From assembly GCA_947499155.1 (NCBI GenBank), contig CANMND010000003.1:124001-188000 (forward strand): a stretch of 64,000 nucleotides of DNA, in the 5' to 3' direction. This document shows positions 31,588-49,836 of this stretch, one piece after another. The DNA is from an uncultured Sphingomonadales bacterium. GTDB taxonomy: Bacteria; Pseudomonadota; Alphaproteobacteria; Sphingomonadales; Rhodothalassiaceae. Below the pieces are notes generated by a model that saw only the letters and a list, made by a program, of their open reading frames with translations, did not search any database and had not been told where the DNA came from. Positions within the stretch are counted from its first letter, which is position 1; the number at the start of each line of letters is the position of its first letter. Position numbers and translations under genes: made by a program.

Positions 31588-31678
31588 CTATCAACCGGCC
31601 CACAATTTTTGCCAACCCACTGAAATTCAAATATCTTTTTATCGCCAAATAAGGCATGTATTACTTTTCTTTGCCATA

Positions 31679-32113
31679 CTAATGATTAATTTCACATAGT
31701 ATTGATTCATTGATTTTATCTCTGATCGACAATTTATCTTCTGATAAAATTTTGAAATTTCCTTGCAGGAGATAATCTATCACTTTAGTTAAATAATTGA
31801 CATTCCATAGGCCTCCATATGAATCATAATAAAGATCTCTATCATTAGGCATATAATTTATTACGGATTCTCGGAATAATGACTCATCCCGTATTGAGAA
31901 TAACTCTCCGCCATCGCTAGTAATAACAAGTAAAAATAATTCATCACTATCTCTTGGGCTATTCTTATAATAGCAATAATTATAAAATGCCATTCCATCA
32001 ATTTCTATTATTTCATTTATTATCTGCTCTAAATCATCCATATCATCAGATTTGACCGCGCTTGGTAAAGAAATTAAAAGCAAGCAAAATGCCAAAATAA
32101 TAGTCTTGCTCAT
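31679..32113 (-). CDS. Secreted small protein overlapping the portal stop, candidate immunity protein
   Basis: 144 aa with a Sec signal peptide (MSKTIILAFCLLLISLPSAV). The mature part is acidic, mixed alpha/beta, with DELFLLVITSDGGELFSI; I do not recognise the family. The ATG at 32113 overlaps the TGA of the portal gene by four bases (ATGA), so the two are translationally coupled. A periplasmic protein coupled to a portal gene has no structural explanation, but it suits an immunity protein against the cell-wall-hydrolase-like domain encoded just upstream. AT-rich compared with neighbours. Confidence 0.65.
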   Translation of the reverse strand: MSKTIILAFCLLLISLPSAVKSDDMDDLEQIINEIIEIDGMAFYNYCYYKNSPRDSDELFLLVITSDGGELFSIRDESLFRESVINYMPNDRDLYYDSYGGLWNVNYLTKVIDYLLQGNFKILSEDKLSIRDKINESILCEINH

Positions 32114-34197
32114 TTCACAAAACGCCCCTCACCCTTCAAAATTACGAGAAATACTTTATCCTTGCTAAACATCCTATCAGACGGTCGTGGGTTGCTATTA
32201 AAAAATGGTCCAAATGAGGCTACCACAGGCTGCTTCACGCCATTTCGGAATACCTTTGGCAACGTCCGAACATCTTCTTCACCTTTTGGAAAAATTGTAT
32301 CGGTGGCATCACGAAAATTAAAGAAATTATTTCCCAAAGAGGTATCCAAACCGTTAGACCGCTCCCCCCTAACTTCTGCTATCAATTGCTTAATTTCATT
32401 CAAAATATTCTCCTCAAACGCTGGCAATTCCCTGTTAATTTGATGAGACGCCGTATCCGGTCGACGAGAGCCAAATTTCTCATCCGCATTAATCACTGCA
32501 TGAGCTATAGCTTTCCGGGCCAAATCTATATCTGGCCCAGAAAGAGATGCGCTTTCATTAAAAACGATATTCGCAACCGCTTCATCATCCAATATCGCTT
32601 TATCACCACGTATAATTGGTGCACCACCGCCCGCACCTTCAATATCCCCGTCTTCTTCTTCACCCTCATCTACATATTCCACAAAACACCGGCAATTTGC
32701 TGTCTCAGTGAGTGACGCGGACGGGTCCGAAGGCAACAGCATCCGCTCACCATCAATTTCAAAATCCTCATCTATTCCTATCTTCACACCTTCCATAGAC
32801 CTATGGCTCTCACGAACCTTTCCATCCTTTTGTATCCGCCAAATCTTCATGCGTTTGCCCGCGTCCTTTGCAACCTCCAACTCCCGCTTCAGATTGGCAA
32901 AGCGCGCAACACGAGTAGCATTCACGGCATGCCCCTTCATCTCGCGATCAGCGTTTAACCGGCCACGAAGTTCAAAAGGACCGAAGGCGTCTCCTGTCAC
33001 CTGCGAGAGCGGCAAATCATCCCCGCCCTCCACCGGGTCGAGGCCCACTTCGGCGCGTTTTTCGTTGGTCGTCATAAAGGCCGCTGACCCAAGCCGCGTC
33101 CATAAAGCGTCCCGTTCCACCGCAAGGGCCGTAATCCGGTCGCGGTCTGCTTCCAGCCGCAAGTCGCCATCCTCGTCATCCAGCCAGCGGCCCAGAGACC
33201 CAAGCACCCGGTCCACAAGCGGTAACAGGGTCAAGCGCCAAAATGCCCGGTTGGCTTCCTGATAATTGGCATAAGTATTGTCGCCCGGGATCCCCAACAG
33301 CATCGGCGGCACCCCAAAGGCGAGGGCGATCTCACGCGCCGCCACATGCTTGGTATTGATAAAGTCCATGTCCGAAGGTGAAAAAGCCATTTGCTGCCAT
33401 TTAAGGCCGCCTTCCAAAAGCAACGGTCGCCCAGCATTCACAGCGCCCTGAAACTGCGCTGCCATTTCTTCTTTCAGGCGCGTGACCTGCTCGTCCGTCA
33501 GATTGCCCGGCGCGCCGTCCCCCGGCTCAAACACCAAAGCACCGGAAGGCCGGGCCGCATTGTCCAAAAGCGCCTTGTTCCAGCTTGAGGCGGCATTATG
33601 GATATCAATGCCCATCGCCGCTGCCTCCAGCGCGGAGAGGCCATAATGATCATCAAGAGGATGAAAGGTCTTCACATGCAAAATCGCCGAGCGCCCGCTG
33701 GCGGCATGGACGGGGTAGCGTCGCTTTTCTCCGCCGACCTCATAAATATAGGCAGCAGGCCAGCCTCGTGCTCCCGGCTCCACCCGCATCCTGTCGGGCC
33801 GCAGGGTATAAAGTTCTGCCACCTCACCTGATGGGCTCGTCACCTGCTCGATATAGGCATTACCCGCCAACAGAAGATGGGAATAAATCTCTTCCAGAAA
33901 GCTCGCGCAGACGCACATGGGATTGGGCGAACGCAACAGGGACAAGACGGGATGCTCGTCGCGCCTTTTGCCCTTTTCATAGAGTTTAAGGGGGACAGAC
34001 GCCGCACATTCCGCAACCAGCCGCACAGCCCGATGGGCTACCACATTGCGTTGATAGCCATTTTGTACCAATGCCCTGTAGCCATAGCCGGTCCAGGTCG
34101 GATCACCGGTTGACAGCCAGGCGGTACCAAATCGCGCCACGGGTGACGCCTTGCGTTCAAGCCCCAGTCTTTGCCGCATGGATTTAATAATCGACAT
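32110..34197 (-). CDS. GTA portal protein (gp3) fused to MuF-like motif and toxin-like C-terminal domain
   Basis: 695 aa; GTA portals are normally about 390-400 aa. Residues 1 to about 400 are an HK97-type portal (AWLSTGDPTWTGYGYRALVQ, PPMLLGIPGDNTYANYQEAN). Residues about 440-505 carry a MuF/SPP1-gp7-like motif, KIWRIQKDGKVRESH through to NCRC at about 499-502. Residues about 530-695 are a distinct domain opening with VANIVFNESASLSGPDIDLA and RKAIAHAVINADEKFG, resembling SleB-type cell-wall hydrolases with a candidate catalytic Glu near residue 547. Portals form the DNA-entry ring. The extension could travel with the particle as an effector. The portal call is certain; the hydrolase call is tentative. 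Confidence 0.88.
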   Translation of the reverse strand: MSIIKSMRQRLGLERKASPVARFGTAWLSTGDPTWTGYGYRALVQNGYQRNVVAHRAVRLVAECAASVPLKLYEKGKRRDEHPVLSLLRSPNPMCVCASFLEEIYSHLLLAGNAYIEQVTSPSGEVAELYTLRPDRMRVEPGARGWPAAYIYEVGGEKRRYPVHAASGRSAILHVKTFHPLDDHYGLSALEAAAMGIDIHNAASSWNKALLDNAARPSGALVFEPGDGAPGNLTDEQVTRLKEEMAAQFQGAVNAGRPLLLEGGLKWQQMAFSPSDMDFINTKHVAAREIALAFGVPPMLLGIPGDNTYANYQEANRAFWRLTLLPLVDRVLGSLGRWLDDEDGDLRLEADRDRITALAVERDALWTRLGSAAFMTTNEKRAEVGLDPVEGGDDLPLSQVTGDAFGPFELRGRLNADREMKGHAVNATRVARFANLKRELEVAKDAGKRMKIWRIQKDGKVRESHRSMEGVKIGIDEDFEIDGERMLLPSDPSASLTETANCRCFVEYVDEGEEEDGDIEGAGGGAPIIRGDKAILDDEAVANIVFNESASLSGPDIDLARKAIAHAVINADEKFGSRRPDTASHQINRELPAFEENILNEIKQLIAEVRGERSNGLDTSLGNNFFNFRDATDTIFPKGEEDVRTLPKVFRNGVKQPVVASFGPFFNSNPRPSDRMFSKDKVFLVILKGEGRFVK
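33011..33609 (-). repeat. Direct repeat copy 2 (portal core), pairs with 30989-31587
   Basis: Lies within the full portal gene (codons about 197-396). See the first copy for the extent of similarity. The repeat ends just before the point where the two C-terminal extensions begin to diverge, so recombination between the copies would exchange the extensions. Confidence 0.88.
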
Positions 34198-34689: not shown

Positions 34690-36045
34690 TTAAAGCTGTA
34701 CGAGATGCGGCACTGCCATCCGCCCCAAAGCCAGTTCGCTTACAGCCCAGACCAGGGCATCAAGACGGTCAGGGCTTTTTTCCCCGCTGGCACCGGTATA
34801 GCTGCACATCTCGTCTTCCAGCGCCTCAAAGCGGGTGACATGACGAACAAGCCCGCGCTCATATAAAGCCGCCACCGGCTCTGCCCTTGCCATCTTGCCC
34901 CGGCTTGCGCGAACAGGGCGATAGCTAAGGCCAGGGGCCACCTGCCGTAAAACCGCTTCCACCATGTCGCCGCCATTATTGACCTCGCCCACGACCCGGT
35001 CGGCACCATGGCGCTCATAAGCCGCGACAACACGCTCTGCCCACTGAATCGGCCGCAAACCCTGGCAGCTTGCATCTTCAAGAACATGAACAGCGCCGTC
35101 TTCTGTCAGACCTGCCACCACTATACCGCAGGCGTCCGCCTTTTCCCCGTGACTGGCGGGGGGATCCACTGCAACAACGATACGGGTAAAGGTCCCGGCA
35201 ACCGGCGTCTGCGCACTTTCCAGCATGGCGCGGGTCCACAAGGCACCGGCCACCTCATCAATCAGATGTCCGTCAAGTTCCTGGGCACCCAATCGCGTGC
35301 CCGCATAAAGCCGTTCCACTTCAGCAAGGAACTGCGGCGCAAGATGCGCCCGGTTATCCAGGGTCCTCCCACTCACAGTAACAGTGGACGGTTCAGCCAT
35401 CAGACGCTTCAGCCAGGGTAATGGGCGCGGTGTTGTAGTTGCAGCCACCCGCGGCGTCCGGCCCAATCGCAGCCCCAGAACCAGATTGGACCAGGCCGTC
35501 GCCCCCTCATACCACTTGGCAATTTCATCAGCCCAGGCCGCATGATGCTGCGGCCCCCGCAACTGGTCCGGGTCGTTGGCGGAATAAAGATAAGCCACAG
35601 CACCATTGGGCCAGACCAGACGGCGACGGGATGGCTCAAATTCCGGCCTGTGACCCGGTGCGCTGCAAGCAAGAATACCGCTTTCGCCCTCCACCATCAC
35701 ATCGCGGATATCAGCGAAACTGTCCCCCACCAGGGCCAGACGTTGCGGTGCGTTATTGGCCGCTGACAGGGGCGTTGATCCTTCCACCAGGCTGCGCACC
35801 CATTCTGCGCCCATGCGGGTTTTCCCAAACCCCCGCCCGGCCAGCACAAGCCAGCAAAACCAGTCCCCTTGTGGCGGGAGCTGATTTTCCCTCGCCCAGA
35901 ATGACCAGTCATGCAACAAAGCGCTGACCTCATGCGGGTGAAGGCCATCAAGCCATTCCCGTATTTTGTTGGTACCAAGGCTCGCACACAGGCGTGCGGC
36001 CCGGCTCATGGCGCCGGACGGCTGTTCAGGCAGACGACGTGTCAT
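34690..36045 (-). CDS. Terminase large subunit (DNA packaging), GTA gp2
   Basis: About 451 aa. Walker A is GRGFGKT at residues 70-76, Walker B/DE is in HHAAWADEIAKW, and the C-terminal nuclease region includes VVAVDPPASHGEKADACGI and a final DRLDALVWAVSELAL. It packages DNA into the head. The frame is open to 36171, but the ATG at 36045 with GAGA six bases upstream overlaps the small-subunit gene by 20 bases and fits the family start. Confidence 0.96.
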   Translation of the reverse strand: MTRRLPEQPSGAMSRAARLCASLGTNKIREWLDGLHPHEVSALLHDWSFWARENQLPPQGDWFCWLVLAGRGFGKTRMGAEWVRSLVEGSTPLSAANNAPQRLALVGDSFADIRDVMVEGESGILACSAPGHRPEFEPSRRRLVWPNGAVAYLYSANDPDQLRGPQHHAAWADEIAKWYEGATAWSNLVLGLRLGRTPRVAATTTPRPLPWLKRLMAEPSTVTVSGRTLDNRAHLAPQFLAEVERLYAGTRLGAQELDGHLIDEVAGALWTRAMLESAQTPVAGTFTRIVVAVDPPASHGEKADACGIVVAGLTEDGAVHVLEDASCQGLRPIQWAERVVAAYERHGADRVVGEVNNGGDMVEAVLRQVAPGLSYRPVRASRGKMARAEPVAALYERGLVRHVTRFEALEDEMCSYTGASGEKSPDRLDALVWAVSELALGRMAVPHLVQL

Positions 36046-36496
36046 CGTCATTCTCGTTTGAACTGTCAGACAAGGCTTCAAGGCGTTCCAGCATCTGCTC
36101 CAGCCGCTCGCGCGCATCATCAGGGCCGCCTTCATCTGCATCAGAGTTACGGATTGCACCATTGCTTGCAAAAACGTGGGGACGGCGGCTTTTCAGCAAG
36201 AACATGCCCAGATTGTCCGAATAGGACCGCACCGCACCACATGGTTTTCCGCCATAATATATCGGCTTTTCCACACCTTCCACCGCCCGGCGGCGCAATT
36301 CGCCCTCCAGATCGTCCAATGCTTCTTCCAAAGCATGGTCCCAGTCTTCACGGAAAGCCGGGTCATTCTGGCGATACCGATAAAGATCCCGCCGGCTTGC
36401 TCCTGATGCCCGCGCGGATGCGCTGACATTGGCCGATGTGCGCAATGTCTCCAAAAATACACGCCGCCTCCGCGCCGTCCACGCCGTCCGCGCCAT
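36026..36496 (-). CDS. Terminase small subunit-like protein (GTA gp1 position)
   Basis: 156 aa from the ATG at 36496 (AAAGG seven bases upstream; a GTG two codons earlier is also possible). An N-terminal helix-turn-helix is visible in RVFLETLRTSANVSASARAS followed by GASRRDLYRYRQ. The central part, EDWDHALEEALDDLEGELRR, is helical and the C-terminal tail is acidic. It recognises DNA for, or regulates, packaging together with the large subunit. GTA small terminases are divergent, so the call rests on the helix-turn-helix and position. Confidence 0.85.
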   Translation of the reverse strand: MARTAWTARRRRVFLETLRTSANVSASARASGASRRDLYRYRQNDPAFREDWDHALEEALDDLEGELRRRAVEGVEKPIYYGGKPCGAVRSYSDNLGMFLLKSRRPHVFASNGAIRNSDADEGGPDDARERLEQMLERLEALSDSSNENDDDTSSA

Positions 36497-39611: not shown

Positions 39612-39773
39612 TCATCCGCGCCGCGCCACAACGCATTTTTCAATCCCCGGATGCGCGGGTTATACATCCTATCTACCATCGCACCAGTAATCCTCGCTGC
39701 ATTCTATCTATCATTGAATTTGTGATTAGAAAATACATTTTGAAACTTATTGGTTATCTGTTTAAATTAAACA

Positions 39774-40805
39774 ATGGAAATTGAGGGTCGATATTTAGAT
39801 GAAATATTGCGCAAGCTCTACAATGAGCTTTCGAAGAGCACTGACACATTCGATGCCAGCAAAGGCAAAGGCAAAGACCTGCTTGGCCCAAAGATTATAC
39901 TTAAAAACCCGCGTGCCAGAATTAGCGCCACAGCTACACGAGGACGCCTGATATCAGCCCTTGCTGAATTTTGCTGGTATCTCAGTGGAAGCGCCGATCT
40001 CGACTTTATCCATTTCTATATCCAGGATTATCCTCCGAAAGGTGCCACGGGGGCGCTGGAAGAGGCTTACGGCCCCCGCATTATTGGAACGGGCGAATTT
40101 GGCCGCTGCTTCAACCAGTTGGAGAGAGTGATCAATCGTCTTCGGGATAAACATGACACTCGCCGCGCGGTCATATCCATTCTCGAACCCAGCGATCTGG
40201 AACCTGACCGCTCTGAAGCGCCCTGTACTACTGCCCTGCAGTTTATTCGGCGGCGAGAGCGCTTGCACATGATTGCGATGATGCGGTCCAATGACGCCTA
40301 TTTAGGTTTTCCACATGACGTGTTTTGTTTCACCATGATCCAGGAGCTTGTTGCCCGCTCTCTCGGCATCAGGGTTGGCGAATATCAGCATTTTGCGACA
40401 AGCCTGCATCTCTACGAAAACGACGTGAACAGCATTTCAGATTATCTTGGCGAAGGATTCCAAAGCCCGACTTTTGCCATGCCTAGGATGCCAGACGGTT
40501 GCCAGCTTCAAAACTTAAATAATTTTCTTGCAACTGAAAGGTCCATAAGAGCCGGCGATATAACCAAGGCTTCTCAAATAGAGCTGCCAGAATACTGGCG
40601 TGATCTTGCCATTGTTATTCTACGAAAAGCAGATAGTAAATATAATAGAGGCACCGCAATATTGAAACAGAATTTTGACAATATATCGAATTCATTCTAC
40701 AGGAATTTCTTCATGAAGACGCCGAGATTATTGCCGGAAACAACAGAAAAAATGATAGCACAGGATAGTCTTGACCTAGGTGATATTAATGACTCTACGA
40801 ATTAA
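39774..40805 (+). CDS. Divergent thymidylate-synthase homologue with Asn-to-Asp at the base-recognition site
   Basis: 343 aa. The spacing of catalytic residues equals that of E. coli ThyA: C151 (PCTTALQF) for C146, R171 and D174 (MRSND) for R166 and D169, H212 and Y214 (LHLYEND) for H207 and Y209, R130-R131 for R126-R127. The residue aligned with N177, which reads uracil, is D182 (GFPHDVF). In dCMP hydroxymethylases this position is Asp, and N-to-D variants of TS accept dCMP. The enzyme may therefore methylate or hydroxymethylate dCMP. About 80 residues longer than ThyA at the C-terminus. It overlaps the next gene by 17 bases. AT-rich surroundings suggest acquisition. Confidence 0.85.
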   Translation: MEIEGRYLDEILRKLYNELSKSTDTFDASKGKGKDLLGPKIILKNPRARISATATRGRLISALAEFCWYLSGSADLDFIHFYIQDYPPKGATGALEEAYGPRIIGTGEFGRCFNQLERVINRLRDKHDTRRAVISILEPSDLEPDRSEAPCTTALQFIRRRERLHMIAMMRSNDAYLGFPHDVFCFTMIQELVARSLGIRVGEYQHFATSLHLYENDVNSISDYLGEGFQSPTFAMPRMPDGCQLQNLNNFLATERSIRAGDITKASQIELPEYWRDLAIVILRKADSKYNRGTAILKQNFDNISNSFYRNFFMKTPRLLPETTEKMIAQDSLDLGDINDSTN

Positions 40806-41715
40806 GAGCCCAGAAAAGACAGACAAAATATCAAATTTACTGGACACCTTTTCCGGCGCTACGCTCTTTGGCATAAAGAGTACAGTGCGCGAACAGGTTC
40901 TTGTGGCGCAGTTGGTCGATAGTGTTCGGCGCATTGAATATCTCAATATATCTTCTATCCGGTCACAATCAGCCAGCCTCCATACACCATACTCCGGTAG
41001 CTTCCAGCCTTTAGGCGGCGGCGCAGTTATGAATAAAGCCGGACGGACTGACGACGCATACTGGCTCGTCTACCTTGCGACGCATTTCGGGAAGCACAAG
41101 ACAGATGGCTGGAATCTAACTGAAGACTTTTACGGTCGGTTCGAACAGGGAGGCATCTGGGACTGGGCTACTGCAAGCCAAGACCCGTCAGCGATTCCGC
41201 GTTGGTTCGAGGATAACTATCCGCATGTAACCAGTATCGGTCGCTCGCGGCGTTTTGGGAACCATCGCAAATATGAAACCTTGAAACCGGGTCCTACCGG
41301 CACCGGCCATGCGCTTGCGACTTATATCGAATGGGTCCTTGGATATGGCTCTCATCAAAAGTTGATTACGTACGCTCAAAGCCGGGTCGGTCAAAATCCC
41401 AAAGATGTCTTCGCGTTTCTTTACAACGACCTGCAGAGTGTTTCCAGGCTTGGACGTCTTGGCAAGTTCGATCTGCTGTGCAACCTCAGCAATCTTCTTA
41501 TCGCCCCTATTCTGGCCGACAGGCCTTACATCATGGGGTCCACGGGGCCAGTCGATGGGGCAAAGTTGCTCTTTGGAAACGACCTAAGCGTCAGGGAGCT
41601 GGATAATGAATGTGCTGCGTTGGCCACCCACCTTGATGTCAGTCCACAAGTAATTGAAGATGCTCTATGCAACTGGCAGAAAAGTCCAGAAAAGTACATC
41701 TACTTTAAAGGCTAA
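40789..41715 (+). CDS. Alpha-glutamyl/putrescinyl thymine pyrophosphorylase-type protein (5-hmdU DNA kinase helical-domain family)
   Basis: 308 aa from the ATG at 40789 (a GTG three codons upstream is possible). Helical protein with TDDAYWLVYLATHFGKHKTD, LTEDFYGRFEQGGIWDWATA and SVSRLGRLGKFDLLCNLSNL, a pattern I associate with the aGPT-PPlase clade predicted to take part in DNA-base hypermodification. Its start lies inside the TS-like gene, so the two are coupled and probably act in one pathway. Its stop overlaps that of the antitoxin gene on the other strand. Family assignment is from memory of the motif pattern. Confidence 0.65.
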   Translation: MTLRIKSPEKTDKISNLLDTFSGATLFGIKSTVREQVLVAQLVDSVRRIEYLNISSIRSQSASLHTPYSGSFQPLGGGAVMNKAGRTDDAYWLVYLATHFGKHKTDGWNLTEDFYGRFEQGGIWDWATASQDPSAIPRWFEDNYPHVTSIGRSRRFGNHRKYETLKPGPTGTGHALATYIEWVLGYGSHQKLITYAQSRVGQNPKDVFAFLYNDLQSVSRLGRLGKFDLLCNLSNLLIAPILADRPYIMGSTGPVDGAKLLFGNDLSVRELDNECAALATHLDVSPQVIEDALCNWQKSPEKYIYFKG

Positions 41716-42800
41716 TCCGTCCAACGATAGCGACGCTTGAGGTGCTGCATCCGATTGAAGCCAATGATCCCCTCATGCTGAAGCTGCCCTACGATCAGCC
41801 CTGGAGCAACGCCAACCTTTTTCGCGAAATTAATAATCGGGAACCTCGATCCACCAAGTGAGAACAGTTCTTCTCTATACGGCAATGGAACGATGGTATG
41901 AGCCGCATACTCATTCGCTTCACGCTCATATTCATCCTCGATCAGGCCCGTATTCTCTAAAATCGGCATCTGATCGAAGTGCAGAAGCAGGTGGGCAACC
42001 TCGTGAAAAAGCGAAAACCAGAATTGATCGTCAGACAGGTAGCGAAAGCTAAGTTGGACGTGGGGTGTACCATCAGAAAGAATCCGAACTGCCCCGCTCG
42101 CTGAACAGCCTTTCGGCGAGCGAACAATCGCAAACTTCACGCCAGCATCTGCGAATGCCTGCTTCAGGCTCGGCAAAAACAAATCCGGACTTTTGTACCA
42201 AGTAAGCTTCCGGAAATGCGGGATTTGATTTTTGAGTACCTCTGGCGACCATTTCTCCACAGTATCGTGAAGAGTTTCAATCTCACCCTGCCGAAGCCAT
42301 GCTGCGGTTGCCACTTCGCATGATGCGTACGCCCTAGATCGCCTGTAAGCTGCGCTCTGAAAGGCATTTTCATATCGGCCTTGCCATTGGGCGAGCGACG
42401 ACACCCCAAAAAAGCCGAGACATTCAGCGATTTGCTCGTCCTTGGATCGAAACTTTTCGATCCACCCGAACTTTTTCATGTCACTCAACGGAAGCTTACC
42501 CGCGAGTTCGGCTTCGCTCATGACACTGACGTTTTCTGACGGTTCCACTCTTGCGCGGTAATCGTGTTCCCTGGCCATCCAAAAACATTCCGTAGCTCCA
42601 AGAGTGACGGCCAGTCTTCGAGCGAGCTCCAGGTCGATAGCCTGGCCTCCGTCGAGAATTTTTTGCGTTATAGTAAGGGTATGTCCGATTTGCCGAGCAA
42701 ACTGTTCAACTGTCAACTCTCGTTCTTCAAGGATACTGACGATTGTATGGCCGGGTGGAGACGACCAGTCGGGCTTCTCAATGAACTCGCTATTCAACAT
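41712..42800 (-). CDS. XRE/HigA-type antitoxin fused to ImmA/IrrE metallopeptidase domain
   Basis: 362 aa. The N-terminal helix-turn-helix (about 15-75) contains LTVEQFARQIGHTLTITQK and ELARRLAVTLGATECFW, the HigA pattern. The C-terminal ImmA/IrrE domain has the zinc motif HEVAHLLLHF (HExxH) and EREANEYAAHTIVP. Such fused proteins serve as antitoxins or repressors that can be switched by proteolysis. ATG at 42800 overlaps the end of the upstream toxin gene by 11 bases. Confidence 0.87.
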   Translation of the reverse strand: MLNSEFIEKPDWSSPPGHTIVSILEERELTVEQFARQIGHTLTITQKILDGGQAIDLELARRLAVTLGATECFWMAREHDYRARVEPSENVSVMSEAELAGKLPLSDMKKFGWIEKFRSKDEQIAECLGFFGVSSLAQWQGRYENAFQSAAYRRSRAYASCEVATAAWLRQGEIETLHDTVEKWSPEVLKNQIPHFRKLTWYKSPDLFLPSLKQAFADAGVKFAIVRSPKGCSASGAVRILSDGTPHVQLSFRYLSDDQFWFSLFHEVAHLLLHFDQMPILENTGLIEDEYEREANEYAAHTIVPLPYREELFSLGGSRFPIINFAKKVGVAPGLIVGQLQHEGIIGFNRMQHLKRRYRWTD

Positions 42801-43098
42801 CGTTGATCCCCATCAGTTTTACCCGTCCAACCGTCGACCAGTCATACAGGTTACCATCATCGGAAGCAGCATAGTTTGGAACCATCACGATTGATAGGTT
42901 ATCTGAAACCAACCATCTGCAGTGGTTTCCATTTATTGACAGATTTCCTACCAGCAATTCATGTATATTACTTGCAGCCTGAATGTCAGAATGCCGCGCT
43001 TGCAAGGAAACTGCCGTATCCTCTCCCAAATATTGTATAGCAGTGGCAGAGTGGAAGCAAATCTCCCGAAGAATCAGAGTATTATATGAAATGAGCAA
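42790..43098 (-). CDS. HigB/RelE-like toxin of a type II toxin-antitoxin pair
   Basis: 102 aa with a TTG start at 43098. The opening LISYNTLILREICFHSATAI and SLQARHSDIQAASNIHELL match HigB-type killer proteins (RelE fold ribosome-dependent mRNA interferases), ending in DGNLYDWSTVGRVKLMGIND as these proteins do. It is coupled by an 11-base overlap to the XRE-ImmA antitoxin; a toxin-first order is typical of higBA. The C-terminal strand lies where catalytic residues vary in this subfamily. Confidence 0.75.
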   Translation of the reverse strand: MLISYNTLILREICFHSATAIQYLGEDTAVSLQARHSDIQAASNIHELLVGNLSINGNHCRWLVSDNLSIVMVPNYAASDDGNLYDWSTVGRVKLMGINDVE

Positions 43099-43686
43099 AT
43101 TCTTAACCTCAGTTAGCTTAGCTATTCTTGGATTAGTGGCTATCAGAGGGTCAAGTTTACTGTCCTAAATGTAACCTACCAGCAGATTGAATCTTAAGCT
43201 AACAATCGGCCCCACTTACACACTACACATTTAAGTTGTAACTTTAATTACGATGAAAATAAAAAATACCACACTCCAACGCGCATCGCATCTGAGATAA
43301 ACACAATCTGGCGGCGCATTTGGTGCGTATAGCGCTATTATAGCGCCACAGATATAATATACACCTAAAAATTAAATATCCGGCCGGCCTCAAATTCACA
43401 AAACATGCATCACCGCCAGTACCCGCCATCGCATTAATGGGGCCTGACAGTAGAAAGGATTTTGAATAACCGCATATGTTTTCGACTATTAACACGCCTT
43501 AGCGCCATACCGCTAGCATCGCTTCTATATCCACTGGGGCATGGCATTGCACTTGTAGCTATTATGATCTTGGATTGCTCGCGGAACATGCCAATACCAT
43601 CACGCTTGTCCGGTTATGTCCTCGGCCTCACGCCCGTTTGACCATTGGAGCAGCACCCGGTTTTGGCCTGAATCCCGGCCTCCAAA
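43099..43686. other. Intergenic region without recognised gene
   Basis: 588 bp, AT-rich. It contains the upstream region of the toxin gene and a short repeated motif TATAGCGC at about 43327-43345. An open frame on the minus strand (43244-43495) has no ribosome-binding site and an unlikely composition. I see no RNA gene here. Confidence 0.5.
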
Positions 43687-43830
43687 TCACTCATTCCCCG
43701 ATATCATGTCGGCATGAATGCCGTCTTTTTTGTTTTCTTTCAGTGCCAAGTCTTTTCCAAAGCTGTATCCAAAAACAACGACTATCAGCAACGAAAGGGC
43801 AAACTGGCGCCCAGATACTTTTTTCAGCAT
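43687..43830 (-). CDS. Small membrane protein downstream of the ABC exporter
   Basis: 47 aa: MLKKVSGRQFALSLLIVVVF begins a single membrane segment, followed by a charged tail. GTGAGGATATG gives a good ribosome-binding site. It starts 26 bases after the exporter stop on the same strand and is probably cotranscribed. It could be an immunity peptide or an exporter accessory; unrecognised. Confidence 0.55.
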   Translation of the reverse strand: MLKKVSGRQFALSLLIVVVFGYSFGKDLALKENKKDGIHADMISGNE

Positions 43831-43856
43831 ATCCTCACCCTCGCTCTCTTTAAACT

Positions 43857-46106
43857 TTAGTCGATCGAAAACTTTACCTGTACTTTAGGAGTTGGTGGCG
43901 CAGATAAGGCTGGCTGGCTCCTGCCGCTATCAGCCGTCTGCACAGGTCCGGACACGCCATTCGCCGCCAGAACATCCGCCTTCGCCACCTCCCGCACCGC
44001 ACCGCCCTCGACCAGAAACAGTCGATCCGCCCTGTGCATCATGGCTTCGCGATGGGCGACGCAGATGCGGGTGATTGGCATGTCGGCCAGAAGGTCGAGA
44101 ATGTGGCGTTCTGCCGCCGGATCCAGATTGGCGGTGCCTTCGTCCAGAAACAACAGCTTCGGCTTGCGATAAAGGGCCCGCGCCAGCAGAACGCGCTGCT
44201 TTTGACCGCCGGACAGGACCGTTCCCATGTCGCCGATCAGGCTGTCATATCCCATGGGCATGGCCGCAATCTCTCCATGCACCGCTGCCATTTGTGCGCA
44301 GATCTGGACATATTCCATATCGGGTTCAGGATCAAAAAAACTGATATTGTCGGCGATAGAGCCTGACAAAAGCGCGTCTTCCTGCATCACTGCCCCAAGC
44401 GAACTTCGATAAGCCCGACTACCCAGATATGCCAGCGGTTGGCCATCCACCAAAAGCGTGCCTTCCTCTGACTCAAACAACCCCAACAGGATTTTCAGCA
44501 AAGTGGTTTTGCCACCACCGGACGGGCCTATGAAGACGGCCATCTCACCGGGTGCTATCTCAAGAGAAACATGACGCAACACCCAGGGTTCGGATTCTGC
44601 ATAGCGGAAGGACACGTCATGAAAAGCAAGCCCGCCTTTAAAATCAGTGTCATTGTCCACCAGACTTCGCGAAGGAACCGCGCCCAGTCCATGCTCCACT
44701 TCCGCAAGGCCAATGTCGGCAATGCGCTCCAGATGAAGGTCAAGAAGGCGGAATTCGATGGCCCGCTCCACCAATGCCGCCGCCTTGTCGGTAAATTGCT
44801 GCTTGTAAGACATGAACGCAAACAGCATGCCGATGGTCAGTGACTGGTCCAGCACAAGCCGGGCGCCAAGATAGACGACCACAATATTTTCAACGCCAAA
44901 CAAAAACCGGTTGGCCGTATCGAAGCCAATTTTGAGCTTTCCAAGCCTGACCGCTGCATTGATCGTATCGGCATATTTGTTCTGCCAGACAGACTGGCGT
45001 TCTGCCTCGCGCCCGAAAAGCTTGACCGACTGAATGCCGCGAATGCCTTCCATGAAAACAGACTGTTCTTTGGCACTGGCAACAATCTGGTCCTCGCTGC
45101 GCCTGCGAAATGCCCTGTAGGTGGCAAGACGCAAAACCAGATAAAGCCCCAGTGCCGCCAGCACCACTCCACCCAGCAAGGGGCTGTAGACAAAGATCAG
45201 GATCAGCGTCGTTGCCGCCATCAGACCATCAATGACGGCCGAGACAAGGCCTTCGGTAAACAAATCCCGGATCGGCGCGGTCGAAGAAAAGCGCGACAGC
45301 ACGTCACCCATATGGCGCTTCTCAAACCAGGGCAGCGGCAGGACCATCAGATGCCGGAACAGGTTGGCGACGATCTGAAAGCCAAGCTGATTGCCCACAT
45401 ACAAAATGACATATTGCCGCAAGGCATCTGAGGCGACGCTGACAAGCATCAACATGCCAAACCCCAGCGCCAGTACCACAAGCAGGCTGGTGTCAAACTT
45501 GGTCAGAACCTCGTCCACCACGATCTGCATATAAAACGGCATGGCAAGAACCACGACCTGCAAAATGATGGAAAGCACCAGCATCTGCACGATGGCCCGC
45601 TTGATCCCCGTCGCCCGCTGCCACAGATCAGTGAGACGCATGCGCTGGCGCTCGTCACGCTGCTCAAATCCGGAAACCGGCATCAGTTCAAGAACAACAC
45701 CCGTGAAATGATCCGAAGCCTCGTCCACATGAAGGCTGCGGGCACCCCGGGCCGGATCGTGAATTTCCAGAATATCGCCACGGACCCGCTTTAAAACCAC
45801 GAAATGGTTCATGTCCCAATGCAGGATGGCCGGCAGGGACAAATGCCCCAAAGCCGACAATTCCGCCCGCAAGGGCCGGGTGGAGAGATTGAGGTGCTCC
45901 GCCGTTCCGATCAGCGCCTTGAGTGTCGCGCCCTTGAGCGACACCGGATAGCGCCGCCGCAAGCTGTTAAGGTCAATCTCATGCCCATGATAGCCCGCAA
46001 CCATGGCGAGACAGGCAAGGCCACACTCCGCCGCCTCCGACTGCCGAATAAGCGGCAAACGCCTGCGACCGGAAAAATTGAGAAGGGAGAGGTGTGTGGA
46101 AGACAT
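43857..46106 (-). CDS. Peptidase-containing ABC transporter (C39 peptidase, bacteriocin export)
   Basis: 749 aa CvaB-type exporter that removes double-glycine leaders and exports the peptide. The N-terminal C39 peptidase (1-150) has the catalytic Cys in QSEAAECGLACLAM and the His in HWDMNHFVVLKR. Six membrane segments follow (about 165-430), then an ATPase with Walker A GPSGGGKTT, signature LSGGQKQRVLLARALY and Walker B LLFLDEGT. The C-terminal 40 residues are a Pro/Ser-rich tail. It should work with the HlyD protein at 52907 and an outer-membrane channel not in the window, exporting the four precursor peptides encoded nearby. Confidence 0.95.
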   Translation of the reverse strand: MSSTHLSLLNFSGRRRLPLIRQSEAAECGLACLAMVAGYHGHEIDLNSLRRRYPVSLKGATLKALIGTAEHLNLSTRPLRAELSALGHLSLPAILHWDMNHFVVLKRVRGDILEIHDPARGARSLHVDEASDHFTGVVLELMPVSGFEQRDERQRMRLTDLWQRATGIKRAIVQMLVLSIILQVVVLAMPFYMQIVVDEVLTKFDTSLLVVLALGFGMLMLVSVASDALRQYVILYVGNQLGFQIVANLFRHLMVLPLPWFEKRHMGDVLSRFSSTAPIRDLFTEGLVSAVIDGLMAATTLILIFVYSPLLGGVVLAALGLYLVLRLATYRAFRRRSEDQIVASAKEQSVFMEGIRGIQSVKLFGREAERQSVWQNKYADTINAAVRLGKLKIGFDTANRFLFGVENIVVVYLGARLVLDQSLTIGMLFAFMSYKQQFTDKAAALVERAIEFRLLDLHLERIADIGLAEVEHGLGAVPSRSLVDNDTDFKGGLAFHDVSFRYAESEPWVLRHVSLEIAPGEMAVFIGPSGGGKTTLLKILLGLFESEEGTLLVDGQPLAYLGSRAYRSSLGAVMQEDALLSGSIADNISFFDPEPDMEYVQICAQMAAVHGEIAAMPMGYDSLIGDMGTVLSGGQKQRVLLARALYRKPKLLFLDEGTANLDPAAERHILDLLADMPITRICVAHREAMMHRADRLFLVEGGAVREVAKADVLAANGVSGPVQTADSGRSQPALSAPPTPKVQVKFSID

Positions 46107-46129
46107 ACATTATGATAAAGTGTTGATTG

Positions 46130-46417
46130 TCATGACAAGATGCGAATTATTATATAGAATAGACCAAGTAAAAATATGCCAAATATAATTAAGAATAATA
46201 CTCTATAATACAATACATTTATTTTCTTATTATTCCATAAGTCATACAATATAAAATTGGAGAAAATCGAAATTGGAATGGCAATGACACCCTTACTGCC
46301 CATAATAGAAACAAAGTTGTCATACTTCATAATCAGAGCAATTGATAATGACGTAAATGAAATACTCACTGCCGCGACAAAGATAACTGAAAATATCTGA
46401 AATTCATCAGCTTTCAT
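46130..46417 (-). CDS. Small membrane protein upstream of the exporter
   Basis: 95 aa from the ATG at 46417 with three hydrophobic segments and a KADEF start. It ends 23 bases before the exporter ATG and is likely cotranscribed. Candidate immunity protein of the bacteriocin locus; no family recognised. Confidence 0.55.
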   Translation of the reverse strand: MKADEFQIFSVIFVAAVSISFTSLSIALIMKYDNFVSIMGSKGVIAIPISIFSNFILYDLWNNKKINVLYYRVLFLIIFGIFLLGLFYIIIRILS

Positions 46418-46434
46418 AGCTAGCACTCATAAAT

Positions 46435-46456
46435 GCCCTCCGGATATCCAGAGGGC
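46435..46456 (-). terminator. Hairpin after a small peptide gene
   Basis: GCCCTC (46435-46440) and GAGGGC (46451-46456) with the palindromic core GGATATCC form a stable stem 10 bases after the stop of the 31-aa gene. The following T-tract is weak. Confidence 0.5.
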
Positions 46457-46466
46457 AAAAATTATT

Positions 46467-46562
46467 CTACCATGCCCATGCGATCATTGCTGATGCGCTT
46501 CCCACTGCAACGCCAGCACTGAACACAGTAACAGCTGTTCCTAAACTGATGTTCACTTCCAT
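46467..46562 (-). CDS. 31-aa hydrophobic peptide gene
   Basis: MEVNISLGTAVTVFSAGVAV begins a very hydrophobic Ala/Val/Ser-rich peptide ending in MIAWAW. Its ATG overlaps the end of the upstream 55-aa gene by 10 bases, suggesting coupled translation. It has no double-glycine leader. It could be a leaderless bacteriocin-like or immunity peptide. Confidence 0.4.
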   Translation of the reverse strand: MEVNISLGTAVTVFSAGVAVGSASAMIAWAW

Positions 46563-46720
46563 AAATAAAACAGCCCTATAGCGATTATACCGATGACCAC
46601 ACCCAGCCTGAACCCCTGGATCATGACCAGAGCGAGAGGGCTTTCCGTCTCAAGCCGTTTATCAAGCGCAGTATCCCTGAAACCTAAAAAATGCAGAATT
46701 CTATCCACTACAGATATCAT
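46553..46720 (-). CDS. 55-aa small membrane protein
   Basis: A basic/acidic N-terminal helix (MISVVDRILHFLGFRDTALD) is followed by one membrane segment (LGVVIGIIAIGLFYLWK). It is coupled to the downstream 31-aa gene. The layout resembles small immunity or holin-like proteins; unrecognised. Confidence 0.4.
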   Translation of the reverse strand: MISVVDRILHFLGFRDTALDKRLETESPLALVMIQGFRLGVVIGIIAIGLFYLWK

Positions 46721-46799
46721 GCTCGTAGCTTCTCATTATTTGCACCACTCATTAAGTGAGCTTTTAACGTCTCCATTTCCATGGACATGGGTCAATTAT

Positions 46800-46940
46800 T
46801 CAAAACAGGGTTAAGTTTTTCCCTACGCTGTAACCGACATTAAACATTGTAATGAAAATAAAACCCAACACAATTACCTTAAAAAACGCTAATTGGTTCT
46901 TCTCCACATAAGAAAGTAAATCTGAACAAAAATTACTCAC
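46800..46940 (-). CDS. 46-aa small membrane protein
   Basis: GTG start preceded by TTGGAG. One membrane segment (FFKVIVLGFIFITMFNVGYS) lies after a short polar N-terminus. Unrecognised; candidate immunity protein in the bacteriocin locus. Confidence 0.4.
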   Translation of the reverse strand: MSNFCSDLLSYVEKNQLAFFKVIVLGFIFITMFNVGYSVGKNLTLF

Positions 46941-47053
46941 ACCTATTAGTCTCCAATATTACTAGTGATAACTACTGTAACACGCCAATTACGATACCAA
47001 CCAGAATCATTTGTTATAACCCATCACTCCTGTACAACTTTCATATATATGTC

Positions 47054-47305
47054 TTAAAATAATGCTAACCCTATAACCGTAATCAAGTAGAAAAAACCAT
47101 AGCTAACTACAAAACTTAACACTGAATATAAGATATTGATCAATACGCTATTCTTTGTTTGTATTACATTTTTTATAAATATAAAATATAATACAGTCAC
47201 AATTGTTCCAAAAACCCCATAACTCTCGCTAGATGTTTTAGGCAAGAATCCTAGCTCTATAAAAAAGATATAAAATAAGAGTATGGGAATTATATAATAC
47301 AGCAC
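47054..47305 (-). CDS. Small membrane protein, candidate immunity
   Basis: 83 aa, GTG start with AAAGG upstream, three hydrophobic segments (LYYIIPILLFYIFFIELGF, then IVTVLYFIFI, then LYSVLSFVVSYGFFYLI). Very AT-rich. It lies downstream of an orphan copy of the precursor promoter module (47478-47644). Confidence 0.5.
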   Translation of the reverse strand: MLYYIIPILLFYIFFIELGFLPKTSSESYGVFGTIVTVLYFIFIKNVIQTKNSVLINILYSVLSFVVSYGFFYLITVIGLALF

Positions 47306-47477
47306 ACCTTTATTATGAAAATAATTTGTATTGTTATTCTGATTATTCTAAATCATACCTCTACCCTGATAGAAGGGTCGAGCGATTGAACATATGAACA
47401 GTCGCCCGATCACTGATCATTTTACATATAAAGATCAAAAATAAGCTTGACCTATAGCAATAACAGCTAACTCCTTT

Positions 47478-47644
47478 CGAATTCCCGTGTCAAGAGAGTT
47501 TAATTATTTCAATTTCCATAAAATTGTTACAAATCATATTGATACCCGCATATCGTACGCGCCCGTGCGGGCGGATGGTCGGGTCGAGGACGCCATCTCT
47601 TCCGTCAAAGTGCGCCGCTCCTGGGCGAGCGGTGAAGAAAACTG
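47478..47644. repeat. Orphan copy of the precursor upstream module
   Basis: 167 bp matching 49852-50020 with few changes, including TTGACA on the minus strand (47488-47493), a GC-rich inverted repeat CGCCCGTGCGGGCG and the segment ending GAAGAAAACTG. Unlike the other copies, it lacks the poly-G tract, the palindrome and a precursor gene, so it marks a deleted or rearranged unit. Confidence 0.8.
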
Positions 47645-47730
47645 ATAGTGCATGGAAAAATTACACCCCCACATATCCTAACAATAACATGAGCGCATAT
47701 TACTCTTGCCAGGCTCATGGTCTGAAACAA

Positions 47731-48246
47731 TTATTCCATGCTGGAATTACGCAGCCTACTGGTAATTTTATCTCCAAAGTATGGTAGACATGCAAAAATG
47801 AATACGATGCTTGCTACTATATTGAGAAATATAATTACTGGTATACTCTCAAAAAAACCTGAACCTATGCTGCATAGCATCGTGCCGGAAAAGAAAACAA
47901 GAAACCATTCTGCAGCATAAATATCAAGGACGCGCCCCTTCGCATCTGGCAGGGTATCTGAACAAGAGCGTGAGTGCATCAAACTGCTTATAAAAATCAA
48001 TAAATTGAGTGCGAATACGAAGCTGGCTACAAGATGCCCATAGCCAGAAATATCCGGAATATTTGGCACGACAGGAAGCAATACTGGTATGAGTATTGAT
48101 GTTATTGACAGTCCTGTAGTTATCAAAACACGGAATATCGTGTCATGCGAATAAGTAAATAGACAATAATTTTTTATGTTAAGCATAAGCGGCAAAAATA
48201 TTAAAGGATTATATCCTACTTTATCATTAATATAATAAGCTCGCAT
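47731..48246 (-). CDS. Four-segment membrane protein, candidate bacteriocin immunity
   Basis: 171 aa with four hydrophobic segments (about 45-65, 72-92, 112-130, 133-153). It follows precursor gene 48435-48749 on the same strand, separated by a strong hairpin. Unrecognised; position suggests immunity for that precursor. Confidence 0.55.
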   Translation of the reverse strand: MRAYYINDKVGYNPLIFLPLMLNIKNYCLFTYSHDTIFRVLITTGLSITSILIPVLLPVVPNIPDISGYGHLVASFVFALNLLIFISSLMHSRSCSDTLPDAKGRVLDIYAAEWFLVFFSGTMLCSIGSGFFESIPVIIFLNIVASIVFIFACLPYFGDKITSRLRNSSME

Positions 48247-48296
48247 ATTTCACCAAATAATATAGATATCGACAACATTCTTGCGCACCAAAAGAG

Positions 48297-48354
48297 GCGG
48301 AGCAATTTCTTAAAGTAAAGCCTTAAGGTAATTAGAAATTGTAATAGCTCCGCC
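48297..48354 (-). terminator. Long hairpin between precursor and downstream membrane-protein gene
   Basis: GGCGGAGC (48297-48304) pairs with GCTCCGCC (48347-48354), and inner AATTTCT/AGAAATT arms extend the stem. On the minus strand TCTTTTGG follows. Likely a partial terminator that keeps immunity expression lower than, or separate from, the precursor. Confidence 0.65.
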
Positions 48355-48434
48355 TACATTTTTATTTATGACGTGAGCCTTACAAAAAAGGATTGAATAT
48401 AGCCCACGATTGATATCATCACTAAAATGCCCAA

Positions 48435-48749
48435 TCAACCAAATGCGGCATAAAGACCAAAGCCTGCCGCAACTAAACCAAATCCCACAGAAACCACTCC
48501 CCCAGCAAATGCTGCTGGAGCACCAAGTGGCCCTAATGATGCTGCACCAAGTGCGGTCACCCCCGCAATTGCCGATCCGGTAGCAAATAATGCTGAGATT
48601 CGACCGGCCTCTGCAGATGTTAAACCACCCGACACAAACTCAATTTCAAGACCAGTCAGTTCCCGCGCGTTGCTTTCATCGGACTGCACCAAAGCCGGTG
48701 CATCGAAAGACACAGCGCCCGGTGCGACTGAGGCTGTCATTGCGTACAT
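48435..48749 (-). CDS. Double-glycine-leader bacteriocin precursor 1
   Basis: 104 aa. The leader ends ARELTGLEIEFVSGG at residue 42, the class II microcin/C39 consensus (L-E-I, V-S-GG). The mature part (62 aa) is Gly/Ala-rich and hydrophobic with several G-x-x-x-G spacings, as in pore-forming bacteriocins. CAGGAGATGGG before the ATG is a strong ribosome-binding site, conserved in precursors 2 and 4. The leader is long, with a conserved N-terminal extension shared with precursors 2 and 4. Confidence 0.85.
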   Translation of the reverse strand: MYAMTASVAPGAVSFDAPALVQSDESNARELTGLEIEFVSGGLTSAEAGRISALFATGSAIAGVTALGAASLGPLGAPAAFAGGVVSVGFGLVAAGFGLYAAFG

Positions 48750-48813
48750 AATCCCATCTCCTGTGTTTCATATAGCATATAAGGGTGCAGCTAAAAACCA
48801 CTGCGCCGCGTTC

Positions 48814-48836
48814 TGTCAGAAAAAATCAATCTGACA
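48814..48836 (-). promoter_or_regulatory. Palindromic operator-like site, precursor 1
   Basis: Perfect inverted repeat TGTCAG-N11-CTGACA, 65 bases upstream of the precursor ATG; conserved in position upstream of precursor 2 and imperfectly upstream of precursor 4. Candidate binding site for a dimeric regulator. Confidence 0.5.
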
Positions 48837-48841
48837 TTGCA

Positions 48842-48870
48842 ATGCTACCCCCCCCTAAAACACCTGCCAA
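48842..48870 (-). promoter_or_regulatory. Candidate promoter with poly-G spacer, precursor 1
   Basis: On the minus strand TTGGCA, 17 bases ending in eight G, then TAGCAT. The G run fills the half of the spacer next to the -10 element. Confidence 0.45.
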
Positions 48871-49045
48871 GAGAGTATAATTATTCAAAATTCTATAAAA
48901 TTGTAATAATGAATGACCCGGCGATAAATATCCACCCCAGCCCTACCAGAACCGAAGGCGGGTAATGTTTGCAAGGAACGTCAACAATTTGCTTTCCACA
49001 AGAAAAGGCCTGAACCCTGCCATACCTGCGACTATCGCCCGGCAC

Positions 49046-49162
49046 TCATTCTTTCGCCCGCCGTAACAAGCTTTCATAAAACGCTGTAACGCCAACCGCC
49101 GAACTCGCAACCATAATCGGGAGCGAAACAGTGGCATACCCGAGTTTTCCTCCGCCAAACAC
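49046..49162 (-). pseudogene. Fragment resembling the 59-aa immunity family
   Basis: A 38-codon frame (GTG start) encodes GYATVSLPIMVASSAVGVTA and a short basic end, similar in layout to the second half of the small proteins at 49189-49368 and 52692-52871 (GFV-L-IS-P-V-AALLM). It is probably a decayed duplicate. Confidence 0.25.
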
Positions 49163-49188
49163 CACTGCGAAATGATGAGCTCATTGGA

Positions 49189-49368
49189 CTATTCGACCCG
49201 CCCAAATACCAGCCTCATCAGTAAAGCGGCAGCGACACTCAGCGGTACCGAGATCGACAGGCCCTTCACAAACCCATATCTGGATATAAGTACAGCAGAA
49301 ATGCCACCCAAAAATATATAAAATACAATCGCGTGCGAACGTCCAAGTTTTTTAGACAACAAAGCCAT
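49189..49368 (-). CDS. 59-aa membrane protein, candidate immunity for precursor 2
   Basis: Starts MALLSKKLGRSHAIVFYIFL and has two membrane segments separated by SRYGFVKGL. It follows precursor 2 (49441-49746) after a hairpin. It is paralogous to the 59-aa protein at 52692-52871 (shared HAI-FYI-LGG, SR-GFV-GL, AALLMRLVFG-VE). Two family members in one bacteriocin locus support an immunity role. Confidence 0.65.
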   Translation of the reverse strand: MALLSKKLGRSHAIVFYIFLGGISAVLISRYGFVKGLSISVPLSVAAALLMRLVFGRVE

Positions 49369-49400
49369 ATTATACCTTTTATCAGTTAGTTAAGAACTGA

Positions 49401-49430
49401 GAGTAAAGGTGCCTGTAAACACCCTTACTC
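49401..49430 (-). terminator. Hairpin between precursor 2 and its candidate immunity gene
   Basis: GAGTAAAGGTG and CACCCTTACTC form an 11-bp stem with one mismatch. No T-tract, so it may be an attenuator or processing site. Confidence 0.5.
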
Positions 49431-49440
49431 ACCATATACC

Positions 49441-49746: not shown

Positions 49747-49808
49747 AACCCCATCTCCCGCGTTTTATATACCATATAAGTTCACAGCTATAAATATTTG
49801 CTGCACTT

Positions 49809-49831
49809 TGTCAGATAATTTCAACCTGACA
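49809..49831 (-). promoter_or_regulatory. Palindromic operator-like site, precursor 2
   Basis: TGTCAG-N11-CTGACA, perfect arms, at the same distance from the start codon as in precursor 1. Confidence 0.5.
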
Positions 49832-49836
49832 TTGCA

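Follow-up and report, generated by a model that had tools for sequence, protein, structure and literature searches.

A mobile bacterial gene cassette joining a predicted dCMP hydroxymethylase to a glycosylase-like protein and a peptidase-containing gene pair, a candidate anti-phage system

We analysed a stretch of 64,000 nucleotides, the window, from an uncultured Sphingomonadales bacterium of the Rhodothalassiaceae (GenBank assembly GCA_947499155.1, contig CANMND010000003.1, positions 124,001 to 188,000 of the forward strand), and in it a compact cassette of four genes held in a variable island (Table 1). A first-pass annotation made from the letters alone had proposed that genes 1 and 2 are an overlapping pair that makes or installs a modified pyrimidine in a bacterial chromosome, and re-reading the sequence returned both open reading frames (ORFs) where it had placed them. 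The reported overlap of 17 bases (40789-40805) holds when gene 2 starts at its ATG and becomes 26 bases from the alternative GTG. The family assignments of the pair are well beyond chance, with E values of 1e-24 for the Pfam domain of gene 1 (PF00303) and of 1.2e-77 and 2.6e-58 for those of gene 2 (PF18746, aGPT-Pplase3, and PF18724, ADDT). The pair is real and recurs in 80 of 80 genome loci, but it is only part of a unit of four or five genes, genes 3 and 4 having been missed. Gene 3 runs convergent with gene 2 and overlaps its end by 4 bases.

Table 1. The cassette and its surroundings; coordinates are positions in the 64,000-nucleotide window, forward strand.
Feature	Position	Strand	Basis
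Gene 1: thymidylate-synthase-family protein, predicted deoxycytidine monophosphate (dCMP) 5-hydroxymethylase, 343 residues	39774-40805	+	PF00303, MilA match, key residues
Codon of Asp182 (equivalent to E. coli ThyA Asn177, T4 gp42 Asp179, MilA Asp186)	40317-40319	+	sequence and alignment
Gene 2: aGPT-Pplase3/ADDT family, helical N-glycosylase-like fold; 308 residues (ATG 40789) or 311 residues (GTG 40780)	40789-41715	+	PF18746, PF18724, AlphaFold model
Gene 3: fusion of helix-turn-helix (HTH) and ImmA/IrrE (M78) metallopeptidase, HEVAH at residues 266-270	41712-42800	-	PF06114, PADLOC PD-Lambda-2_B
Gene 4: small conserved protein, 102 residues from TTG	42790-43098	-	homologue beside gene 3 in 76/80 genome loci, alignment
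Variable island holding the cassette	39612-54802	no strand	blastn/tblastn versus same-genus genomes G001 and G002; G+C

The best PDB match of the gene 1 protein is the cytidine monophosphate (CMP) 5-hydroxymethylase MilA (140 bits, against 65 bits for the best thymidylate synthase), and an ordinary, separate ThyA is encoded elsewhere in the genome (C8:45813-46601, 422 bits). Gene 1 falls under the cut-offs of all eight NCBIfam thymidylate synthase models that it matched (for example 78.7 versus 174.55, 76.7 versus 327 and 67.7 versus 108.35 bits), and its alignment holds no counterpart of the APVAV end of the genome's own ThyA. The residues C151, R171, D174, H212, Y214 and D182 are present as the first-pass annotation had listed them. 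D182 stays at the position of E. coli Asn177 and aligns with D179 of T4 gp42 and D186 of MilA, whereas the genome's own ThyA (N180) and SPO1 gp29 (N194) have asparagine there. According to published work, the aspartate is conserved in cytosine-using enzymes and asparagine in uracil-using ones, the substitutions A176S/K133R turn MilA from CMP to dCMP (PMC5175136), and the D179N change reduces the kcat of the T4 enzyme up to about 3600-fold (PMC6400193).

The same positions were compared across 108 cassette enzymes, that of the window among them, aligned with T4 gp42, SPO1 gp29, the genome's own ThyA and MilA as references; the set excludes six loci that were duplicates, ThyA or from the genome itself, and the broken ORFs of L067 and L069. 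Asp182, Cys151, Arg171, Ser172, Asn173, Asp174, His212 and Tyr214 occur in 108/108 enzymes and Glu65 in 107; at position 130, 103 enzymes have Arg, the window's among them, and the other 5 have Lys. The window enzyme has the Ser and Arg of the deoxyribose type and not the Ala and Lys of the ribose type seen in MilA. It bears the full signature of a dCMP hydroxymethylase and is predicted to convert dCMP to 5-hydroxymethyl-dCMP, and the dCMP-type assignment of the first-pass annotation is borne out, at the level of sequence, by position-specific residues kept in all 108 cassette enzymes. In a phylogenetic tree the cassette enzymes fall into a single clade of 110 tips (support 0.87), whose sister (support 0.97) comprises MilA, three plasmid enzymes of the CMP type (Lys, Ala) that adjoin nucleoside 2-deoxyribosyltransferase genes, and one aberrant Geobacillus protein.

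Related enzymes were also met in other settings. The plasmid loci L135, L136 and L137 (Streptomyces, Priestia), with their MilA-like CMP-type hydroxymethylases (Lys/Ala/Asp) near nucleoside 2-deoxyribosyltransferase genes, are probably uncharacterised nucleoside clusters of the MilA/MilB type. On plasmids of Streptococcus salivarius and Geobacillus (L138, L139), dCMP-type (Asp, Ser) genes of the family cluster with PqqD, AAA ATPase, CYTH and QueA-like genes, which would be another bacterial setting for such enzymes. An E. coli IncHI1B plasmid (L141, 3897-6828) holds a family gene of the deoxyuridine monophosphate (dUMP) type (Asn) in a row with MazG-type and metallophosphoesterase genes.

Gene 2 scores above both Pfam cut-offs (261.5 bits versus 25 for aGPT-Pplase3 and 197.9 versus 26.2 for ADDT), and some E. 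coli records carry it under the NCBI label 'alpha-glutamyl/putrescinyl thymine pyrophosphorylase clade 3 protein'. The family names aGPT-Pplase and ADDT reportedly come from Iyer et al. 2013. PDB sequence searches with gene 2, as a single sequence and as a profile, gave no match. Its AlphaFold model is confident (predicted local distance difference test, pLDDT, 94.8). Of the first 25 rows of a VIA-align comparison, 19 are DNA glycosylases and 5 belong to a queuine salvage enzyme; the remaining one is an unnamed protein. The Z values of these rows run from 9.2 to 5.8, with 3.0 for the next row, and the first row has a root-mean-square deviation (rmsd) of 5.7 over 210 aligned residues; the tool's own note rates a Z of less than about 13 as no more than moderate when the protein is helical. 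The queuine salvage enzyme, an N-glycosylase, stands at the top and was solved with queuosine or its 5'-monophosphate. No amino acid transferase is among the VIA-align rows listed, an absence that proves nothing. By its model, the gene 2 protein resembles the helical (helix-hairpin-helix-type) N-glycosylase superfamily, a fold that would allow removal of a base as much as its installation or decoration and by itself does not decide between them.

An additional gene of about 270 residues, absent from the window, usually lies between genes 1 and 2 where it occurs (28/80 genome, 4/25 viral and 1/7 plasmid loci). Three examples of its protein had no Pfam match of note. The AlphaFold model of the protein from locus L007 (pLDDT 92.6) matches uracil-DNA glycosylases (UDGs), with a Foldseek E value of 6.3e-6 and a VIA-align Z of 14.4 to 4zbx (rmsd 3.5, 186 aligned residues). 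Asn55 and His246, in GxNPx and His motifs, are invariant in 27 sequences of this protein and are presumably the catalytic Asn and His of TDG-like enzymes. In phage records the optional protein had no match at 0.01. A UDG, that of Sulfolobus tokodaii, is also the best match of the anti-phage glycosylase Brig1 (PMC11078745).

Gene 3, on the opposite strand, resembles a component of a known defence system. The PF06114 match of gene 3 has an E value of 6.7e-7, its HTH match is weak in the window protein (0.049), and an HExxH motif is present in 75/75 gene 3 homologues of at least 300 residues (four shorter ones were left out). Its best PADLOC match is PD-Lambda-2_B (PDLC03982; 3.6e-25, and 2.2e-26 to 8.7e-30 in three relatives). 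PD-Lambda-2 is described as an abortive defence system consisting of a HigB-like A component, a HigA-peptidase B component and a P4-antitoxin-like gene, in which B alone is toxic and is neutralised by A (PMC9519451). Gene 4 occupies the place of the HigB-like partner, itself without a PADLOC or Pfam match; its profile found nothing among PDB sequences, and a relative at L025 gave a weak match (0.016) to a protease model. As to the C component, genes 1 and 2 match no PADLOC model and the conserved unit holds no such third gene. In both E. coli lineages described below, a MazG-like gene on the opposite strand follows the small gene (L142 10631-10894, L145 11476-11742).

The four genes travel as a unit. 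A search of 84,980 species genomes with gene 2 as bait confirmed 211 stretches that hold a relative, of which the best 80 were analysed. All 80 have gene 1, 79 have gene 3 and 76 have gene 4; the sole miss of gene 3 is a contig of 4.3 kb, and three of the four misses of gene 4 fall on short loci. Gene 3 is convergent with gene 2 in 77/79 loci, L077 and L086 being rearranged. The 25 IMG/VR loci contain gene 1 in 25, gene 3 in 24 and gene 4 in 22 cases, and the 7 plasmid loci (Roseomonas, Neorhizobium, Pantoea, Rhizobium, Arthrobacter, Agrobacterium and Leptospira) in 7, 7 and 6 cases; 8 plasmid records had matched, one of which (H5, a near-twin of H4) was left out. Among 113 loci, 13 pairs are at least 98% alike in gene 2. 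By their record titles, the 80 loci cover at least eight phyla (Proteobacteria, Chloroflexi, Bacteroidota, Acidobacteria, Actinobacteria, Planctomycetes, Verrucomicrobia and Myxococcota), and the Leptospira plasmid adds a ninth. Pairwise distances of genes 1, 2 and 3 correlate, with a Mantel r of 0.74-0.82 against a maximum of 0.16 in 999 permutations; the set (n = 73 of 80) omits one locus lacking gene 3 and six with split ORFs, and shared host history could contribute to the correlation.

Outside the cassette, six families of ORFs of at least 150 residues recur in at least three of the 80 loci. Judging by examples, the largest of them is integrase-like (9), followed by a resolvase-like (4) and an Mrr-like family (4), which supports the view of the cassette as a self-contained unit. 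The family is rare, with matches in 2/60 related genomes including its own, in 1/385 genomes of the class (its own) and in 4/398 of the phylum, again including its own; three of these four carry the full unit, and the fourth, G501, has the divergent gene 2 relative described below. A phage origin of the pair was considered and rejected: a tblastn search of 50,697 phage records with gene 2 gave nothing at 1e-5, yet IMG/VR contigs (prophage, virus or miscalled host) do carry the cassette.

Mobility is evident at the window locus itself. The genes that flank the 39.6-54.8 kb stretch lie about 277 bp apart in the same-genus genome G001 and about 3 kb apart in G002 (blastn/tblastn), and the G+C of 39612-54757 is 0.481 versus 0.528 in the rest of the window. 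No exact shared words of 11-20 bases, as attachment-site repeats would give, were found at the island edges.

Copies in E. coli extend this picture. In complete E. coli genomes, 231 of 5,426 match the three large genes, 226 of them over at least 80% of the query, and all 237 places are chromosomal. Gene 4 is present in all three E. coli loci checked. We inspected four loci of two lineages: L142 adjoins a DEAD/DEAH helicase and type I restriction genes, in L143 (river-water strain W2-5, four-gene unit at 4158-7487) and in L144 the helicase comes at the margin of the stretch, and L145 (78.5% alike) is flanked on one side by a tRNA-Leu with an integrase and on the other by a type I restriction system. 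Because some E. coli genomes hold the whole unit, the named families aGPT-Pplase3 and ADDT are directly testable there.

We read the cassette as a mobile anti-phage system, probably abortive, that would use cytosine chemistry, and give this reading a probability of about one half. The first-pass annotation had raised defence only as a perhaps; mobility, the PD-Lambda-2_B-like partner and the E. coli copies beside type I restriction genes make such a role plausible, and it is still one that we infer. What the computation establishes is the conserved unit, the dCMP-type active site, the folds and the mobility; the reaction of gene 2, the fate of its product, the trigger and the anti-phage role are proposals. 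Gene 1 would turn dCMP and methylene-tetrahydrofolate into 5-hydroxymethyl-dCMP, on which the gene 2 protein would act, most likely by breaking the glycosidic bond. The target might be the free nucleotide, in which case the dCMP pool would be destroyed in a way similar to the action of MilB on hydroxymethyl-CMP, or it might be the nucleotide once built into DNA, where abasic sites would remain. Since no kinase was seen that would explain phosphorylation of 5-hydroxymethyl-dCMP for DNA synthesis, action on the free nucleotide may be favoured. The UDG-fold protein of about a third of the cassettes would take part. Genes 3 and 4 may form a toxin-antitoxin-like pair, related to the A and B components of PD-Lambda-2, that holds the system off; the HTH part of gene 3 would repress or bind, and its ImmA/IrrE part would answer a signal such as DNA damage and thereby release the system. 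One could go further and propose a 'mark and excise' form of abortive immunity, in which the cell's own 5-hydroxymethyl-dCMP marks nucleotides or replicating DNA, one or two glycosylases remove the marked base, and a damage-sensing peptidase-antitoxin gate controls the process. Taken as a whole this scheme is speculative and rather unlikely; if true, it would turn the T-even phages' own trick into a bacterial weapon.

Several observations weigh against an anti-phage cassette of this kind. In gene 1, position 131 (E. coli Arg127, the second phosphate-site Arg) is R in 42, Q in 40, K in 13 and N in 13 of the 108 enzymes, with R in the window. Foldseek found no significant match of the gene 2 model in the PDB (best E 0.52, an 8-oxoguanine DNA glycosylase), and gene 4 has no Pfam, PADLOC or NCBIfam match. 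A divergent gene 2 relative (L151 1651-2559, genome G501; 219 bits with the family model) adjoins a beta-lactamase-like gene, 47 bases after it, and genes 1, 3 and 4 were not detected in the 8 kb around it, so that gene 2 can stand alone and is not obligately tied to gene 1. At L144 gene 3 carries an IS66 element in its 3' part, and the annotation gives genes 1 and 2 as intact, which implies that a cell can sometimes tolerate these two without full-length gene 3. Restriction of the analysis to the best 80 of the stretches found is a limit of sampling. A scan for defence neighbours covered 146 of 448 neighbouring ORFs (the nearest, of at most 750 residues). Among the matches listed (25 of 102 PADLOC families, E <= 1e-10) are methylase, SIR2, MzaA and RecD-like models with 1-2 members each, and among those listed for Pfam (25 of 124 families) integrases (4), resolvases (3) and Mrr (3); as the scan had no background control, we do not count these as enrichment.

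Further points on the same side concern gene 2 and at the same time speak for a different explanation, hypermodification of DNA, in which 5-hydroxymethyl-dCMP would enter DNA and the gene 2 protein would decorate its hydroxymethyl group, shielding the host or mobile elements from nucleases. The names that Pfam gives to gene 2 (pyrophosphorylase, amino acid:DNA transferase) suggest base modification, and among the viral models of BFVD it is best matched by a phage protein with an amino acid:DNA transferase domain (3.2e-5); the other good rows are mostly unnamed, with an endonuclease III at rank 6 (0.017). TS-family, that is thymidylate-synthase-family, hydroxymethylases do make modified bases in phages (PMC5175136, PMC6449724). 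The first-pass annotation had linked the pair to hypermodification of thymine in particular, a link that lacks support: the active site is of the cytosine kind, with Asp in 108/108 enzymes and not the dUMP-type Asn of SPO1 gp29, and there is no kinase among the cassette genes. In the phages M6, ViI and phi W-14 this pathway appears to require a DNA kinase acting on 5-hydroxymethyldeoxyuridine (5hmdU) (PMC6449724). None of the six recurrent neighbour families looks kinase-like, judged by one example each, so that phage-type hypermodification would lack a step in the cassette; a search with PF18723 (HMUDK_hel) gave 0 matches in the window's own genome but also 0 in 14 control genomes and does not demonstrate absence. 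The cytosine-type active site counts against hypermodification more generally, as the cited routes begin from 5hmdU, and so do the failure of gene 2 to match any of the 50,697 phage records (tblastn, 1e-5) and the need for a peptidase-antitoxin, which hypermodification leaves unexplained. We consider it unlikely.

A small-molecule route like that of MilA and MilB is distinctly unlikely in our view. It would yield free 5-hydroxymethylcytosine or another modified pyrimidine, serving as an antimetabolite or as a signal read by the HTH-peptidase. MilB hydrolyses hydroxymethyl-CMP (PMC4081090), the sister clade of gene 1 unites MilA with enzymes encoded beside nucleoside 2-deoxyribosyltransferase genes, and one of the top fold matches of gene 2 binds a nucleotide monophosphate. 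The cassette enzymes, however, have the deoxyribose residues (S, mostly R) and not the A and K of MilA, and no biosynthetic gene family is common to at least three of the 80 neighbourhoods. About as slight is the chance that the cassette is an addiction or stabilisation module of mobile elements without an anti-phage role, with genes 1 and 2 as the toxin and genes 3 and 4 as antitoxin and regulator. The convergent toxin-antitoxin-like genes and the presence of the cassette on plasmids and on an integrative island would fit such a module, but every E. coli place is chromosomal, two lineages there lie beside restriction genes, and the E. coli copy with an interrupted gene 3 retains genes 1 and 2. 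Going by its annotation in public records, gene 1 would be no more than a spare, ordinary thymidylate synthase with an unrelated neighbour; this view was rejected as highly improbable, given Asp for Asn in 108/108 enzymes, the missing ThyA C-terminus, the NCBIfam scores below every matched cut-off and the separate, real ThyA of the genome.

Two other regions of the window deserve mention. The island also holds an exporter of the ATP-binding cassette type, like those of bacteriocin/type I secretion with a C39 peptidase (43857-46106; TIGR03796 at 481 bits, under its cut-off of 853), a HlyD adaptor (52907-54331) and several small, similar ORFs whose leader is double-glycine-like and ends in VSGG or VSGA (48435-48749, 49441-49746 and 51963-52283), and 43857-54331 is a putative bacteriocin cluster. 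Outside the island, the ORFs at 30226-31545 and 32110-34197 match the same stretch of relatives, upstream of 34690-36171, and the region 30226-34197 appears to be a duplication in a prophage or gene-transfer-agent-like cluster, in which portal and terminase were named by reading only.

If the anti-phage reading of the cassette is right, it would add a new use of modified nucleotides in conflict with phages, combining a hydroxymethylase of the dCMP type with partners of glycosylase fold and a switch of the immune type. To our knowledge, bacterial 5-hydroxymethylcytosine for the cell's own use is known mainly from nucleoside antibiotics. The whole cassette (dCMP-type enzyme, glycosylase folds, PD-Lambda-2_B-like partner) was not found described in the literature searched; Iyer et al. 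2013 and Burroughs et al. 2015 may already describe thymidylate synthase neighbours, and we make no claim of priority.

Among known systems, T4 gp42 is identical to the window enzyme at all eleven key positions compared (E, R, R, C, R, S, N, D, D, H, Y), whereas gene 1 sits in a bacterial mobile cassette without a glucosyltransferase or deoxynucleoside monophosphate kinase among its genes. MilA and MilB of mildiomycin synthesis offer the nearest PDB relative of gene 1, a common cytosine-type Asp and, in both systems, a partner of the N-glycosidase type. They differ in that gene 1 has Ser/Arg for deoxyribose where MilA has Ala/Lys for ribose, and in that gene 2 is helical and glycosylase-like whereas the plasmid MilA-like enzymes adjoin nucleoside 2-deoxyribosyltransferases. 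The aGPT-Pplase3/ADDT families include gene 2 by score; its fold, in contrast, resembles N-glycosylases, its partner enzyme is cytosine-type, and the activities in the family names are themselves predicted. Brig1 has as its best match the family 4 UDG from Sulfolobus tokodaii, whose fold is also that of the optional gene's L007 model; the optional gene is absent from the window. DefensePredictor gives aGPT-Pplase as a predicted, unvalidated defence domain and lists a thymidylate synthase domain among those of validated systems (PMC13092281), a likeness to the cassette at the level of domain names. PD-Lambda-2 provides the B component that gene 3 matches and the HigB-like component whose place the small gene takes; by its published description it comprises only HigB-like, HigA-peptidase and P4-antitoxin-like genes, whereas genes 1, 2 and 4 of the window match no PADLOC model. 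We would place the cassette with nucleotide-modifying, toxin-antitoxin-linked defence.

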